The position numbers were made by a program, and so were the translations under genes. The notes under the pieces were generated by a model, which was not told where the DNA came from, did not search any database, and was given only the letters and a program-made list of their open reading frames with translations. This document shows, piece after piece, positions 2,646 to 13,240 of a DNA stretch of 64,000 bases; position 1 is the first letter of the stretch; every line of letters starts with the position of its first letter. Source of the stretch: Flavobacterium johnsoniae (lineage in GTDB: Bacteria > Bacteroidota > Bacteroidia > Flavobacteriales > Flavobacteriaceae); contig NZ_MLFK01000010.1 in assembly GCF_001879205.1 (NCBI RefSeq), positions 124,001 to 188,000 on the forward strand. Reading direction: 5' to 3'.

Positions 2646-3383
2646 ATGACTATGGAAATAACAAGTAAATCTACAATTGGGGAAATTGTTGCCAATGATT
2701 TTAGAACAGCTGCTGTTTTTTCGAAATACAGCATAGATTTTTGCTGCAAAGGACATCGCACAATAGCAGAAGTCTGCAAAAAAAGAGATATCACAGAAAA
2801 TATCCTTATGCAACAGCTTCAAATTGCAAAGGAGAGCCCGGCAAACCAGTCTTTTGATTATAAATCATGGCCGGTGGATTTATTGACAGATTATATTGAA
2901 AAAACACATCACAGATATGTAGAAGAAAAAACACCGGTTTTACTTCAGTTTTTAAATAAAGTATGCCGTGTTCATGGCGAGATACATCCTGAACTGCATG
3001 AAATTAATACCATCTTTAATGCATCAGCATCTGATCTTGCTGCTCATATGAAAAAAGAAGAAACGGAACTTTTTCCTTTCATTCGAGAAATGAAAAAGGC
3101 AAAAGACAAAGGTTTATCATTTCAAACACCTGTTTTCGGAAGTATTGAAAATCAAGTTCTTTTAATGAAAGAAGATCATTTGGGAGAAGGACAGCGCTTT
3201 AAAAAAATTGCTGCGCTAACCAATGATTATACTCCTCCTGCAGGAGCCTGCAACACATACAAAGTTACTTTTTCGATGCTGCAGGAATTTGAAAGCAACT
3301 TGTATAAACACATTCATATGGAAAACAATATTTTATTCCCAAAAGCAATTAAACTAGAAAAAAACTTTAAGAGAGTTTTTTAA
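2646..3383 (+). CDS. ric: Iron-sulfur cluster repair di-iron protein (Ric/YtfE/ScdA)
   Basis: Cytoplasmic di-iron protein of the Ric family, which restores iron-sulfur and other iron centres damaged by nitric oxide or peroxide. The N-terminal ScdA_N region (about residues 5-55) has TIGEIVANDFRTAAVFSKY followed by the FCCKG cysteine pair. A hemerythrin-like helical bundle follows, with iron-ligand candidates in HHRYVEE, RVHGEIHPEL, HMKKEETELFPF, KEDHLGEG and HIHMENNILFP. It starts 19 bases after nadB and ends 13 bases before nrdD, so it is embedded in the operon. NadA and the NrdG activase both carry oxygen- and NO-labile clusters that Ric could service. A second in-frame ATG lies at 2652. Confidence 0.93.
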   Translation: MTMEITSKSTIGEIVANDFRTAAVFSKYSIDFCCKGHRTIAEVCKKRDITENILMQQLQIAKESPANQSFDYKSWPVDLLTDYIEKTHHRYVEEKTPVLLQFLNKVCRVHGEIHPELHEINTIFNASASDLAAHMKKEETELFPFIREMKKAKDKGLSFQTPVFGSIENQVLLMKEDHLGEGQRFKKIAALTNDYTPPAGACNTYKVTFSMLQEFESNLYKHIHMENNILFPKAIKLEKNFKRVF

Positions 3384-3396
3384 ATACAAATAAAAC

Positions 3397-5520
3397 ATGG
3401 AAAAATATGTAATCAAAAGAAACGGAGATTACAGACCCTTTGAGTCTTTTAAAATTAAGGACGCAATTGAAAAAGCTTTTCAAAGCGTTAGTCAGCCCGT
3501 CGACAAAAAAATCTTTAAACTTGTTAGTACTGCATTAGAATCTAAGTATTCATGGTCAGTAGAAGAAATACAGGATATTATTGAAAGAACTTTGTTTGAG
3601 AATGGTTATTTCTTAACCATGCGCTCGTTTATAATTTATCGTCATACGCGTAAACTGCAGAGAGAACACATAAATGGTCTTAATGATGATACAACCTATG
3701 TAAACAGCACGCAAACAATAGAAGAATACATCAATCAGTCTGACTGGCGAATCAATGCAAATGCTAATACTTCGTACTCAAATGCCGGATTGGTTAATAA
3801 TACCTCGGGCAAAATAATTGCAAATTACTGGCTCGATAAAATTTATAACAAAGAAGAAGGTTTTGCCCATCGAAACGGGGATATTCATATTCACGATCTG
3901 GACTGCTTAACGGGATACTGTGCCGGGTGGAGTCTGCGTGTGCTGTTAAACGAAGGCTTTAATGGTGTTCGGGGCCGTGTAGAAAGTAAAGCTCCTTCTC
4001 ATTTTAGAGAAGCACTAGGGCAAATGGCAAATTTCCTGGGAATTCTTCAAAGCGAATGGGCAGGTGCTCAGGCATTCAGTTCTTTTGATACTTATCTCGC
4101 TCCTTATGTTTTTAAGGATCAGCTTTCTTACGATCAGATTTTAAAAGCTGTTCGAAGTTTTGTGTATAACTTAAATGTTCCTGCACGCTGGGGACAATCA
4201 CCTTTTACCAATATAACGCTAGACTGGATTGTTCCGGATGATCTTAAAGAACAAATACCAACCAGAAACAATGACCATTTGTTTCTTAATGTAGAAAATA
4301 AAGAATTAGCCGCTAAAGCAAAAGAAAGAGGAATTGAAAAATTAACAAACTTAAAATATGCTGATTTTCAGCAGGAAATGAACCTCATTAACAAGGCTTA
4401 TTATACCGTAATGACCGAAGGCGATGCAAACGGACAGCCTTTTACCTTCCCTATTCCAACTGTAAATATTACAGAAGATTTTGACTGGGAAGGAGAAAAT
4501 GTCGATTTGTTATTTGAAAACACGGCTAAAATAGGATCCTCGTATTTTCAAAACTTCATTGGAAGCCAGTATCTTCTTGATGAAAAAGGAAATAAAATTG
4601 AGAATCCGGATGCTTATAAACCAAACGCCGTTCGAAGTATGTGCTGCAGGTTACAGCTTGATCTTCGTGAATTATTAAAACGAGGAAATGGGCTTTTTGG
4701 AAGCGCAGAAATGACGGGGAGCATTGGCGTTGTAACTATTAATATGGCCAGATTAGGATTCTTGCATAAAGGAAATATTATAGATTTATTTAAACATCTC
4801 GATGAACTTCTTTTAATTGCGAAATCAACTTTAGAGAAGAAAAGAATTTTTATACAGGAAATGTACGACCGCGGACTTTATCCGTATACCAAACGCTATC
4901 TGGATCATTTTAGAAACCATTTTTCGACTATAGGCGTAAACGGAATGAATGAAATGATACTTAATTTTACGAATGGAAAACAAGACATTACGGCCAATTC
5001 AGGGATTCATTTTGCATCGGAAATTCTAGATCACATCCGATTAAGAATGAAAGAATTTCAGGAAGAAACCGGAAATCTATATAATCTTGAAGCCACCCCT
5101 GCAGAAGGAACAACTTATCGTTTTGCAAAAGAAGATAAAAAACGTTTTCCTGAAATTCTTCAGGCAGGCTGTGACCAAAACATCTATTATACCAATAGTT
5201 CTCAAATACCTGTTGACCATACCGAGGATCCTTTTGAAGCTCTGCTGCTGCAGGATGAATTACAATGCAAATATACAGGAGGCACAGTGCTTCACCTTTA
5301 TATGAGAGAAAAAATAAGCAGCCCTAAAGCCTGTAAAAACTTTGTAAAAAAAGTATTAACCAGCTTTAAACTGCCTTATATTACCGTAACTCCGGTTTTC
5401 AGCGTCTGCCCTATTCACGGTTATCTTAATGGAGAACATGAATATTGTCCGAAATGCGATGAAATTTTATTAAATGAAAACAATAAAAAAATGATGATAT
5501 ATGAAAACACAAACACATGA
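3397..5520 (+). CDS. nrdD: Anaerobic ribonucleoside-triphosphate reductase NrdD, main chain
   Basis: Class III ribonucleotide reductase, which makes deoxynucleotides without oxygen using a glycyl radical. Residues 1-95 form an ATP-cone (KRNGDYRPFESFKIKDAI), the dATP/ATP activity switch. The catalytic barrel includes DIHIHDLDCLTGYCAGW, the RSMCCRLQLDL cysteines and GSIGVVTINMARLGF. The C-terminus carries the metal-binding block SVCPIHGYLNGEHEYCPKC. The usual final segment with the radical glycine (RVxGY) is missing from this 707-residue chain. The frame stops at 5518-5520, and the radical motif is found in a different frame immediately downstream (5501-5668). So the chain as read cannot hold its own radical. 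Confidence 0.93.
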   Translation: MEKYVIKRNGDYRPFESFKIKDAIEKAFQSVSQPVDKKIFKLVSTALESKYSWSVEEIQDIIERTLFENGYFLTMRSFIIYRHTRKLQREHINGLNDDTTYVNSTQTIEEYINQSDWRINANANTSYSNAGLVNNTSGKIIANYWLDKIYNKEEGFAHRNGDIHIHDLDCLTGYCAGWSLRVLLNEGFNGVRGRVESKAPSHFREALGQMANFLGILQSEWAGAQAFSSFDTYLAPYVFKDQLSYDQILKAVRSFVYNLNVPARWGQSPFTNITLDWIVPDDLKEQIPTRNNDHLFLNVENKELAAKAKERGIEKLTNLKYADFQQEMNLINKAYYTVMTEGDANGQPFTFPIPTVNITEDFDWEGENVDLLFENTAKIGSSYFQNFIGSQYLLDEKGNKIENPDAYKPNAVRSMCCRLQLDLRELLKRGNGLFGSAEMTGSIGVVTINMARLGFLHKGNIIDLFKHLDELLLIAKSTLEKKRIFIQEMYDRGLYPYTKRYLDHFRNHFSTIGVNGMNEMILNFTNGKQDITANSGIHFASEILDHIRLRMKEFQEETGNLYNLEATPAEGTTYRFAKEDKKRFPEILQAGCDQNIYYTNSSQIPVDHTEDPFEALLLQDELQCKYTGGTVLHLYMREKISSPKACKNFVKKVLTSFKLPYITVTPVFSVCPIHGYLNGEHEYCPKCDEILLNENNKKMMIYENTNT

Positions 5521-5668
5521 AATCCTAAAGAAACAGGAATCGAAAAGAAGTAAATGCTTAGTGTATACAAGAGTAATGGGTTATCACAGACCAGTAGAAA
5601 GTTTTAATATTGGAAAAAAAGGCGAACACCAGCAGCGAAATCATTTTAAAGAAATCAGGATCGAATAA
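5501..5668 (+). CDS. Separate glycyl-radical domain of NrdD (55 residues)
   Basis: Small ORF in the +1 frame relative to nrdD, with its own ATG at 5501 and a 20-base overlap with the nrdD end. It contains the class III glycyl-radical signature TRVMGYHRPVESFNIGKK, with the radical glycine at residue 27, plus Cys19 just before it and the GEHQQRNHF tail. These are the residues that normally end NrdD. It could be translated as a separate subunit by coupling to nrdD, or joined to it by a +1 shift near the ACA-UGA stop at 5515-5520, or the genome could carry a frameshift mutation or sequencing error. Frame 2 has a stop at 5495-5497, so any shift must fall in 5498-5520. Confidence 0.8.
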   Translation: MKTQTHEILKKQESKRSKCLVYTRVMGYHRPVESFNIGKKGEHQQRNHFKEIRIE

Positions 5669-6344
5669 AGCAGTTTACAGCATCACTCCATTTACTTTAT
5701 TAGATTATCCCGATAAAACAGCCTGCATAATTTGGTTTGCAGGCTGTAATATGCGGTGTTTATATTGTTATAATCCGGATATTGTTTTAGGAAAAGGAAA
5801 AATTGATTTTGAAACGGTTCTTACTTTTCTAAAATCCAGAAAAGGATTATTGGATGGTGTAGTTTTAAGCGGAGGCGAATGCAGCATCCATAAAAATATC
5901 CTTGATTTTATAAAACAAATAAAACTCTTGGGATTTAATGTAAAAATAGACACAAACGGTTCCAGTCCCCGGGTGCTGAAAAAAATGATACATGAGAAAC
6001 TGATTGACTATGCTGCTTTAGATTTTAAAAGTCTCCCGGCGGCTTTTAAAACTATTACGCAATCTAACCTATTTGCTGAATTTGAAGAAAGTCTTACACT
6101 TTTAATGAATTCCTCCATTCCATTTGAAGTTCGGACTACGCTTCATTCAGCACTTATAAACAGATCAGAATTAGCAGCAATGAGAAATTATCTCGAAGCT
6201 CAAAACTATGAAGGAAATTATTATATACAACATTTCGTAAATAATGTGCCAACCATAGGTAATTTAGAATATTCAGAAAAATCATTAAGATTTGAAAATT
6301 TTTCGACCTCAAAAATAAATGTTATTTTTAGGGAACAATTATAA
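5610..6344 (+). CDS. nrdG: Anaerobic ribonucleotide reductase activating protein NrdG
   Basis: Radical SAM enzyme that creates the glycyl radical on NrdD with S-adenosylmethionine and a [4Fe-4S] cluster. The cluster motif CNMRCLYC (CxxxCxxC) follows SITPFTLLDYPDKTACIIWF, and DGVVLSGGECSIHK is the glycine-rich SAM-binding region. There is no ATG ahead of the radical SAM core. The only reasonable start is TTG at 5610, inside the glycyl-radical ORF, giving a 59-base overlap. Homology would place the mature start near residue 20, so the exact start is uncertain. The overlap suggests translational coupling of radical domain and activase. Confidence 0.9.
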   Translation: MEKKANTSSEIILKKSGSNKAVYSITPFTLLDYPDKTACIIWFAGCNMRCLYCYNPDIVLGKGKIDFETVLTFLKSRKGLLDGVVLSGGECSIHKNILDFIKQIKLLGFNVKIDTNGSSPRVLKKMIHEKLIDYAALDFKSLPAAFKTITQSNLFAEFEESLTLLMNSSIPFEVRTTLHSALINRSELAAMRNYLEAQNYEGNYYIQHFVNNVPTIGNLEYSEKSLRFENFSTSKINVIFREQL

Positions 6345-11542: not shown

Positions 11543-13240
11543 TTATGATTCGCAGCTGCTGCAAGTAACTAAACTTGTTACCAATTCTTTAGAAACACTT
11601 TGGCTTCTTTGGTAATACAAGCTTTTTACGCCCAATTGCCAGGCTTCGATCATTAAACGGTTTACCTCCTTAATTGGCAGTTCTGCCGGAATATTAAGGT
11701 TCAGACTTTGTCCCTGATCTACAAATTTCTGGCGGATCGCTGCCTGCTGTACAATTTCAAGCTGACTGATTTCTTTAAAGGTTTTAAAAACATCTTTTTC
11801 AGTCTGCGAAAGCTGCGACATGTGCTGTACACTTCCTCCGTTCAGCATAATTTCTCTCCAGACTTCTTCGTTATCAAGACCTTTTTTTTCTAATAATGCT
11901 TTTAGGTATTTATTTTTACGCATAAAATTACCTTTACTTAAACCCGCTTTATAGTAATTACTGCTAAAAGGCTCGATTCCCGGAGAAGTTTGTCCTAAAA
12001 TTGCCGACGATGAAGTTGTTGGAGCAATTGCCATTGTTGTGGTATTGCGTTTTCCGTATCCTTTCAGCAATTCTGGTTCGCCATAAATTCTGGCCAGTTC
12101 CTGAGTTGCTTTATCAGCTTTATCACTTATATGTTTGAAAATTTCTGTTGTTTTCATTTTAGCTTCCATTCCTTCAAACGGAATCATATTTTTCTGCAGA
12201 TAAGAATGCCATCCTAAAACACCTAAACCTAATGCACGGTGTCTTTTAGCAAATTTATTGGCTGCCGAAAGATAATAGTTGCCTTCTGTTTTTTCGATGA
12301 ATTCCTGCAATACAGCATCCAGGAAAAAGATCGCTAATTTAACTGCTTCTGTATCTTTCCATTCTTCATAAAGCTCCAAATTCATTGATGATAAACAGCA
12401 AATAAACGATTCGTCCTGACTCGACGGAAGCATAATTTCACTGCACAAATTACTTGCATTAATACGCAGGTTTTTATCTTTATAAACTTGCGGTTTGCTT
12501 TTATTCACATTATCGCTGAAGAAAATATAAGGAAGTCCTTTCTGCTGACGGCTTTCTAAAACTTTGGCCCAAATTTGTCTTTTGTCGGCATCTCCGTCAA
12601 TCATTTCCTGCATCCAATAATCTGGAACACAAATTCCGGTAAATAAATTCTGAATTGGATTACCAATGCTTTTAATTTTAAGGAATTCCTCAATATCCGG
12701 ATGGTCAATATCCAAATAAGCGGCAAATGCACCGCGACGCACACCACCCTGCGAAATCGTATCCATAGCCGTATCAAATAGTTTCATAAAACTTACGGCT
12801 CCGCTGCTTTTTCCGTTATCGGTTACGGCACTTCCGCGCTCACGTAATTCCCCAAAATAGCCAGATGTTCCACCGCCTATTTTAGTCTGCATAATTACTT
12901 CGCCCAATTTATGTGTAATTCCTTCAATTTTATCCGGAACGTGTACGTTGAAACAAGAAATTGGCAAACCTCTTTCGGTTCCCATATTGGCCCAAACCGG
13001 CGAACTGATACTCATCCAGCCGCGTTCGATCATTTCTACAAAAGATTCTTTTAATTCCGGTTTGTATAATCTTTTTGCTGCAGCGGTACATATTCTGTCA
13101 ATTGCCCCTTCTACAGTTTCACCTTTTAAAAGATAACCGCGATTTAAAATTTGTTCACTTTCAGAGTTCTTCCACCACATTTTGGTCCCTGTTTCATTTT
13201 GCGGAAGACTATTTACTTCATTTGTATCTATTGTATTCAT
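11543..13240 (-). CDS. nrdA: Class I ribonucleoside-diphosphate reductase alpha subunit
   Basis: Aerobic class I catalytic subunit that reduces ribonucleoside diphosphates. Redox and radical residues are visible: Cys96 (LPISCFNV), the Asn264-Cys266-Glu268 triad in NLCSEIMLP, the second redox cysteine at 281-282 in FICCLSSMN, the paired tyrosines in KSLYYQRS, and the C-terminal CSSC thiols. The 565-residue chain begins about 20 residues before the reductase fold and has no ATP-cone, so it lacks the usual dATP overall-activity switch. It follows nrdB by 11 bases in one minus-strand operon. The size and the partner match the F. johnsoniae class Id enzyme. Confidence 0.95.
   Translation of the reverse strand: MNTIDTNEVNSLPQNETGTKMWWKNSESEQILNRGYLLKGETVEGAIDRICTAAAKRLYKPELKESFVEMIERGWMSISSPVWANMGTERGLPISCFNVHVPDKIEGITHKLGEVIMQTKIGGGTSGYFGELRERGSAVTDNGKSSGAVSFMKLFDTAMDTISQGGVRRGAFAAYLDIDHPDIEEFLKIKSIGNPIQNLFTGICVPDYWMQEMIDGDADKRQIWAKVLESRQQKGLPYIFFSDNVNKSKPQVYKDKNLRINASNLCSEIMLPSSQDESFICCLSSMNLELYEEWKDTEAVKLAIFFLDAVLQEFIEKTEGNYYLSAANKFAKRHRALGLGVLGWHSYLQKNMIPFEGMEAKMKTTEIFKHISDKADKATQELARIYGEPELLKGYGKRNTTTMAIAPTTSSSAILGQTSPGIEPFSSNYYKAGLSKGNFMRKNKYLKALLEKKGLDNEEVWREIMLNGGSVQHMSQLSQTEKDVFKTFKEISQLEIVQQAAIRQKFVDQGQSLNLNIPAELPIKEVNRLMIEAWQLGVKSLYYQRSQSVSKELVTSLVTCSSCES

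Follow-up and report, generated by a model that had tools for sequence, protein, structure and literature searches.

Where does an anaerobic ribonucleotide reductase obtain its radical if its catalytic chain ends before the glycine that should carry it? The question is raised by a locus of Flavobacterium johnsoniae (contig NZ_MLFK01000010.1, positions 124,001 to 188,000, a stretch of 64,000 nucleotides referred to below as the window). Here nrdD, the gene for the catalytic chain of a class III ribonucleotide reductase (RNR), stops short of the glycyl-radical motif, and the motif lies in a small open reading frame (ORF) of its own, followed by nrdG, the gene for the activase. The sequences make it highly probable that the locus encodes a two-chain class III RNR, in which the radical subunit would be a protein of its own, charged by NrdG and docking into NrdD. 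The features on which this reading is built are the following:

3397–5520, + strand: nrdD, class III RNR catalytic chain of 707 amino acids (aa); PF03477, PF13597, NF006126
5407–5457, + strand: zinc-ribbon ligands C671, H674, C684 and C687 of NrdD, the final conserved element of the chain
5501–5520, + strand: 20-nt overlap of the nrdD end with the ATG region of the small gene, read from the sequence
5501–5668, + strand: predicted gene for the separate glycyl-radical subunit, 55 aa; match to the end of PF13597, and conservation
5567–5620, + strand: glycyl-radical motif TRVMGYHRPVESFNIGKK, with the radical glycine codon at 5579–5581 (Gly27 of the small protein)
5610–6344, + strand: nrdG, activase of the NrdG2 family (TIGR02495), overlapping the small gene

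The nrdD gene is a single open frame whose product ends in ...CPKCDEILLNENNKKMMIYENTNT*, 20 residues past the last cysteine of the zinc ribbon. It covers positions 2–528 of the 562 positions of PF13597, and the glycyl-radical end is absent, as was stated in an earlier note on this DNA, which had NrdD ending just after its metal-binding cysteines. The chain contains an ATP-cone (aa 3–86), the barrel, Cys175, the MCCR finger loop (aa 415–418) and a zinc ribbon of the C/H/C/C type, and scores 1076 bits against NF006126 (cut-off 548) and 408 bits against TIGR02487 (cut-off 326). Cys175, the MCCR loop and the ligand columns of the zinc ribbon are invariant in all nine aligned sequences; the meaning of the active-site and finger-loop motifs is given in section 9 of PMC9669993, and the role of the zinc ribbon in NrdD in passages of PMC4493059. 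Together with the glycyl-radical motif encoded alongside NrdD and the radical-SAM (S-adenosylmethionine) protein NrdG, the barrel and the Cys175/MCCR motifs mark a class III RNR system. It is not a canonical single-chain NrdD, in which the radical glycine is part of the barrel polypeptide, as nrdD stops at 5520. Neither a second nrdD nor a fused copy was found in the window's own genome, which holds one nrdD and one small ORF. The nearest named NrdDs, those of F. plurextorum and F. oncorhynchi, are 90–91% identical.

The 55-aa ORF lies in the +1 frame relative to nrdD and matches positions 530–562 of PF13597 (E 6.9e-7). Its predicted product has a mass of 6.7 kDa and a computed isoelectric point of 10; at E 0.1 it matches PF13597 only in Pfam, without PF01228, and no solved chain resembles it by sequence at E 0.1. 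The motif is indeed intact in the +1 frame, and the gene has a separate ATG at 5501 that overlaps the nrdD stop, both as claimed earlier, the stop codon ending 20 nt further on; the distance of 20 bases given for the motif was wrong, since 46 nt separate it from the nrdD stop. The opening of nrdG within the small ORF was also read correctly, its frame running over 5610–6344 and the ORF ending at 5668, with the reservation that the nrdG start is uncertain and TTG 5610 a mechanical choice. NrdG matches TIGR02495 (NrdG2) with 196 bits against a cut-off of 131. Among the split loci of relatives described below, nrdG was found in 101, and in 100 of these its frame is already open upstream of the point where the small gene stops (in one further locus the contig ends), an overlap that suggests coupled translation. 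Over 30 core codons of 94 distinct small-ORF sequences, the proportion of synonymous differences (pS) is 0.71 and that of non-synonymous differences (pN) 0.030, a pN/pS of about 0.04, and in the other two reading frames over this core pN exceeds pS. The core is under strong purifying selection and is conserved as a protein.

Compared across relatives, the two-frame layout turned out to be kept. In a sample of 249 genomes of the same genus the main piece of nrdD is present in 90 and the small ORF in 90, with both in 89; a weak small-ORF hit in G184 (E 8.5e-4) and weak nrdD hits in G057 and G245 were left out of these counts. The exceptions are G221, 75% complete, with nrdD only and a match ending at model position 321, and G046, 87% complete, with the small ORF only, at the edge of a contig. 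Of the 92 same-genus small-ORF hits (all E below 1e-26) not one is fused, and their open lengths range from 55 to 133 aa. The 162 loci sorted comprise 102 distinct split, 20 duplicate split and 11 fused loci, and 29 distant NrdDs whose zinc motif falls outside the search pattern and which were counted as fused because their Pfam matches extend to 559–562; a repeat sorting gave 122 split, 11 fused and 29 distant. The near-relative clade is represented by 122 loci, and not one of them has a continuous nrdD frame; L035, reported by the search as an 802-aa frame, has three stops between the two pieces. Recurrence in 102 distinct loci, together with the contrast of pS and pN in the core, places the layout of the small ORF beyond chance.

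A few loci of this set deserve a description of their own. In L094 (Flavobacterium fluvii) an extra 62-aa ORF lies between nrdD and the small gene and resembles a chimera of the small-protein leader and the NrdD zinc-ribbon tail, possibly a trace of recombination between both genes. In L034 (G342), L012, L107 and L128 the two genes are separated by gaps of about 200–630 bp, several with AT-rich repeat-like runs. The contig of L118, labelled as a Bifidobacterium breve metagenome-assembled genome, groups with Flavobacterium and is probably mislabelled.

The earlier note had offered two ways of keeping a normal NrdD. According to one of them, a programmed +1 ribosomal frameshift near ACA-UGA would fuse the two frames, and the window itself, with frames overlapping by 20 nt at +1, fits this well, the same offset being present in 78 of the 102 distinct split loci. 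The offset is, however, 0 with intervening stops in 18 loci and +2 in six, the first in-frame ATG of the small gene may precede the nrdD stop or follow it by as much as 631 bp, and across the 122 loci there are 1 to 16 stops in the nrdD frame ahead of the glycine. With offset, distance and number of stops varying from locus to locus, frameshifting cannot join the pieces in general. The junction RNA (5470–5620) is not unusually stable (z -0.69), a measure that a short or pseudoknotted stimulator could escape, and in phages, as shown below, the small gene may precede nrdD or be encoded on the other strand. We therefore regard the frameshift as very improbable. The other proposal, a sequencing error or recent mutation in a normal nrdD, is suggested by nothing more than the look of a frame shifted by one base in one genome, and its likelihood is close to nil: the two pieces are shared throughout the genus sample, the motif is under purifying selection, relatives with a continuous frame are absent among the near-relative loci, and seven plasmid records from other phyla annotate two coding sequences (CDS). 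The remaining proposal of that note, a separate radical subunit, is supported by the lack of a continuous frame, by the occurrence of all three offsets and by the phage rearrangements, and its objection that a single chain is needed to bring the glycine to the active site finds no backing in these genomes, as far as their sequences tell.

The split form is not confined to Flavobacterium. Whole-genome surveys covered the window's phylum, and beyond it plasmid, phage and viral-contig records were used. In the family sample of 299 genomes, 30 have an NrdD match above the cut-off and 24 a distant fused NrdD, the split type occurring in genera g31 and g95 besides the window's own. Of 395 genomes sampled across the phylum, 27 are above the cut-off, 17 of them fused and 10 split, the latter comprising eight of the same genus, one in family f3 and one in f8. 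Named carriers of the split form are Algoriphagus, Cyclobacterium, Indibacter, Cecembia and Chitinophaga tropicalis. Of 17 fetched plasmid and phage records, 12 are split, from Sulfuricurvum, Sulfuricystis, Azospira, Cupriavidus necator, C. metallidurans, Aquabacterium, Thiothrix, Shinella, Bradyrhizobium, Cereibacter and two Paracoccus, and five are fused, from Actinomyces oris, Acidiphilium, Geoalkalibacter and two phages. The layout thus recurs in Campylobacterota and Proteobacteria, with the NrdD of Sulfuricurvum (Campylobacterota) being 70% identical; more distant fused relatives exist as well, two at 58% identity. The small CDS of the 12 split records is annotated as nrdD in eight, as hypothetical in one and not at all in three. 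A RefSeq pair of 'ribonucleoside triphosphate reductase' and a 57–66 aa 'nrdD' is found in Sulfuricurvum, Sulfuricystis, C. necator, Shinella, Azospira, Bradyrhizobium and Aquabacterium, and in the Thiothrix record the small CDS alone is listed.

Two Cupriavidus plasmids link these records to earlier work. In C. metallidurans CH34 the small gene follows nrdD; since its nrdDG genes appear in parts of the literature as Rmet_5137 and Rmet_5139, the small gene may be Rmet_5138. In C. necator H16 the nrdD of pHG1 is split, and the truncated chain computes to 76.19 kDa. The NrdD studied by Siedow et al. in 1999 (J Bacteriol 181:4919), together with nrdG of C. necator, reportedly had 76.2 kDa, so that it was probably the split form that these authors had in hand, and the small ORF may have come to their notice.

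Phages carry both forms and rearrange the split one. The best 80 of 106 viral-contig loci encoding NrdD relatives, near-copies kept, comprise 46 fused loci, 21 with a separate small gene, three in which none was found, one unclear and nine without the 3' end. The motif pattern had called 18 of the 80 'noGRD', and their tails were then read individually: seven turned out to be fused forms whose motif is a variant (L247, L250, L252, L257, L260, L261, L263), in eight a small gene had escaped the pattern, lying either close by or at another place in the record (L184, L186, L188, L192, L212, L239, L246, L249), L210 and L215 yielded none, and L255 is ambiguous. In G924 (locus L212) nrdD is preceded by the small gene, in G919 the two are about 110 kb apart, and in G927 (E 3.2e-9, a weaker match) and G928 (E 2.9e-10, 3' part only) the small gene is on the opposite strand, positions that rule out a single colinear product for these records.

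Some phage genes have further peculiarities. In L275 (G919 contig, 184900–186700) the small radical gene is interrupted by about 0.8 kb just past the radical glycine codon; the insert holds an ORF for a LAGLIDADG-like endonuclease (motif seen by eye), and Rfam at gathering thresholds gave no hit in the interrupted gene. The NrdDs of L183, L197, L201, L243 and L244 extend past the radical domain with parts that look glutaredoxin- or thioredoxin-like by eye, a CPNC-type motif being visible in L183, L243 and L244.

In a tree of 62 NrdD cores, from which the radical end was excluded and which was rooted on three phage sequences, the window's NrdD type belongs to a main split clade of 37 rows (SH-aLRT branch support 99), whose first branch is a split phage form; L212 represents a second, separate split. 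A smaller tree of 53 rows also has one main split clade. The fewest changes between the split and fused states are five in the former tree and three in the latter. Re-fusions following an early split appear to fit best, several inner forks being weak and the branch of L209 long.

How could a separate radical carrier serve NrdD? The small ORF would be translated separately into the 55-aa protein, NrdG would install the radical on its glycine in trans, the protein would dock with its glycine loop inside the NrdD barrel, and the radical would pass to the active-site cysteine of NrdD, as from the C-terminal loop of a single-chain NrdD. A carrier acting in trans is believable because the glycyl-radical domain (GRD) is mobile in known structures: that of Prevotella copri NrdD is reported as mobile, and disordered with dATP, in the relevant part of PMC11226230, and PMC12662201, in the portion concerned, describes the GRD of class III RNRs as flipping out for activation. 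Both chains were also modelled with AlphaFold2, read as one and with fused phage NrdDs added as alignment rows. The model has a mean local confidence (pLDDT) of 86.3 and a global score (pTM) of 0.80, with block means of 86–91 in the glycine loop and 46–56 in the finger loop; VIA-align superposes its residues 79–751 on P. copri 8p2s_B with Z 34.1 and a root-mean-square deviation of 2.4 over 554 residues. Judged by the end offsets, Gly27 of the small protein, which is Gly728 in the model, is approximately level with T4 Gly580 in four entries and with Thermotoga maritima Gly621 in 4col, 4coj and 4com. The model shows that the small protein can occupy the normal place of the glycine loop, but is no evidence that it actually does.

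Several observations weigh against the two-chain reading or limit its reach. The offsets give 623 in T. maritima 4coi, where the glycine is 621, and 712 in P. copri 8p2s, where it is 711, so the equivalence of the glycines is approximate. A model from split rows alone was too poor (pLDDT 50), its initial alignment having misplaced the short rows (identities 23–31%), and the better model is no independent proof, as the fused phage rows and the NrdDs used in AlphaFold training guide the placement of the loop. Fused forms, namely L170 (Actinomyces oris), L178 (Acidiphilium) and L209 (a phage contig), lie inside the split clade, and since fused forms stand inside or beside it, the separation is not indispensable. 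The small gene was not found in three of the 80 phage records (L187, at an edge, L210 and L215), which are possibly fragments. In Thiothrix fructosivorans pTfr153 (L171) the catalytic chain is broken across two frames (about 375 + 321 codons) with the small radical gene intact, and this record may not encode a working enzyme. Finally, the idea of a replaceable radical part, discussed below, relies on a link between the split form and oxidase genes that is a correlation and suggestive only.

The neighbourhood of nrdD bears on what the separation might be for. The gene order is nadA–nadB–RIC–nrdD–small gene–nrdG–copD-like, the upstream part consisting of:

145–1077, + strand: nadA, upstream of the RIC gene (profile match)
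1064–2626, + strand: nadB, upstream of the RIC gene (profile match)
2646–3383, + strand: gene for a RIC/ScdA/YtfE di-iron protein of Fe-S repair (TIGR03652), directly upstream of nrdD

Among 80 named split loci, some of them truncated, a RIC homologue is present in 74, a NorB-like gene in 24, and homologues of nadA and nadB in 41 and 37; genes of the nor, nap or nos type lie close to nrdD on pHG1 and on the Sulfuricurvum and Shinella plasmids. A large chain of an aerobic-type RNR (PF02867) is encoded in the window at 11543–13240 (- strand), about 5 kb from nrdG, so that two RNR classes lie near each other. The search for FNR-like boxes was uninformative (83 hits, 86 expected).

Within the two-chain reading, the split may have been favoured or may merely have been tolerated. 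A tentative proposal is that the small protein is an exchangeable cartridge, charged by NrdG and replaced once O2 or NO has destroyed its glycine, comparable to YfiD/GrcA of pyruvate formate-lyase (PFL), but obligate and not a back-up. The pertinent part of PMC8683613 provides the precedent: glycyl-radical enzymes are cut by O2 at their glycine, and PFL broken in this way is repaired by YfiD. The split might, with less assurance, permit a damaged part of 6.7 kDa to be swapped after exposure to O2 or NO instead of the 81-kDa enzyme, and it is plausible that such a part would help cells shifting between oxygen, nitrate and anoxia. In line with it are the RIC and NorB-like neighbours, the nor, nap or nos genes of the plasmids, and PF00115 genes in all 11 split genomes tested, this family being of the haem-copper oxidase type and also covering NO reductases. 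PF00115 above the cut-off is found in four of the 11 genomes with the phylum's nearest fused NrdD and in none of five others with a distant fused one, but it also occurs in nine of nine same-family genomes with a distant fused NrdD; the association with aerobes is kept weak because such aerobe-like genomes with fused NrdD exist, phylogeny confounds it, and the effect of NO is inferred. It is likewise conceivable, and we would not commit ourselves further, that a gene fission was retained simply since the two chains still bind, with no advantage from their separation. Other RNRs have survived splitting, such as NrdJa/NrdJb and NrdA-a/NrdA-b of phage Aeh1, as mentioned in PMC3267527, and as fused forms are found within the split clade, either state seems to work; retention in at least three phyla and in phages, with a second split in the L212 lineage, hints instead at an advantage. 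A wider proposal, which we consider rather doubtful, is an ancient branch of class III RNRs in which the glycyl radical is a mobile, replaceable protein cofactor, charged by NrdG, docked into NrdD in trans and swapped after damage by O2 or NO, and independent enough for phages to carry its gene far from nrdD or on the other strand and perhaps, in some cases, to borrow that of the host.

If the two-chain reading is right, these two genes appear to encode a naturally divided glycyl-radical enzyme with an essential reaction, present in at least three bacterial phyla and in phages, in which radical carrier, catalytic chain and activase could be mixed freely. The separate small gene suggests that the fragile radical part can be made, and perhaps replaced, independently, and the pair opens questions about the exchange of this part, the chain recognised by NrdG and the route of the glycine to the active site. 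In practice, as nrdD supplies no radical domain by itself and the small gene next to it has to be included, constructs or phylogenies based on nrdD alone may miss it. The gene pair is visible in databases because both genes carry automatic RefSeq names; these RefSeq pairs are the same gene pair, and the names do not state that the two form one enzyme. No description of a separately encoded NrdD glycyl-radical domain or of a two-subunit enzyme was found in the open-licence literature searched, a scope outside which Siedow 1999 falls; portions of it deal with phage nrdD genes in fragments and with split RNRs of classes I and II. The 1999 paper on C. necator may anticipate part of the two-subunit view. 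According to the section of PMC8683613 concerned, only two spare-part proteins have been validated, both for PFL, and others might exist.

Among known systems, the single-chain NrdDs of P. copri, T. maritima and T4 share with the Flavobacterium enzyme the barrel, finger loop, zinc ribbon, glycyl-radical motif and NrdG partner; here, in contrast, the radical glycine is on another polypeptide and the zinc ribbon remains on NrdD, the split point falling inside the region that PMC11226230, where it treats P. copri NrdD, terms the GRD. YfiD/GrcA and T4 Y06I are also small stand-alone proteins with a glycyl-radical motif, but the PFL they serve keeps a glycine of its own, whereas NrdD here has none, and the small protein, unlike YfiD/GrcA, matches PF13597 and not PF01228. 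At E 0.01 PF01228 has no hit in 10 of the 11 split genomes, the exception being the window's own, and because no PFL-type glycyl-radical domain was found in these 10, a role of the small protein as a spare part for PFL is improbable there. The sharing of a catalytic function between two genes recalls NrdJa/NrdJb of Pseudomonas aeruginosa, which differ in being a class II, B12-dependent RNR. Two chains make up one catalytic subunit in NrdA-a/NrdA-b of phage Aeh1 as well; that split concerns a class I enzyme of one phage, is put down in the relevant part of PMC3653736 to an inserted homing endonuclease, and is not a conserved cellular layout like the one described here.

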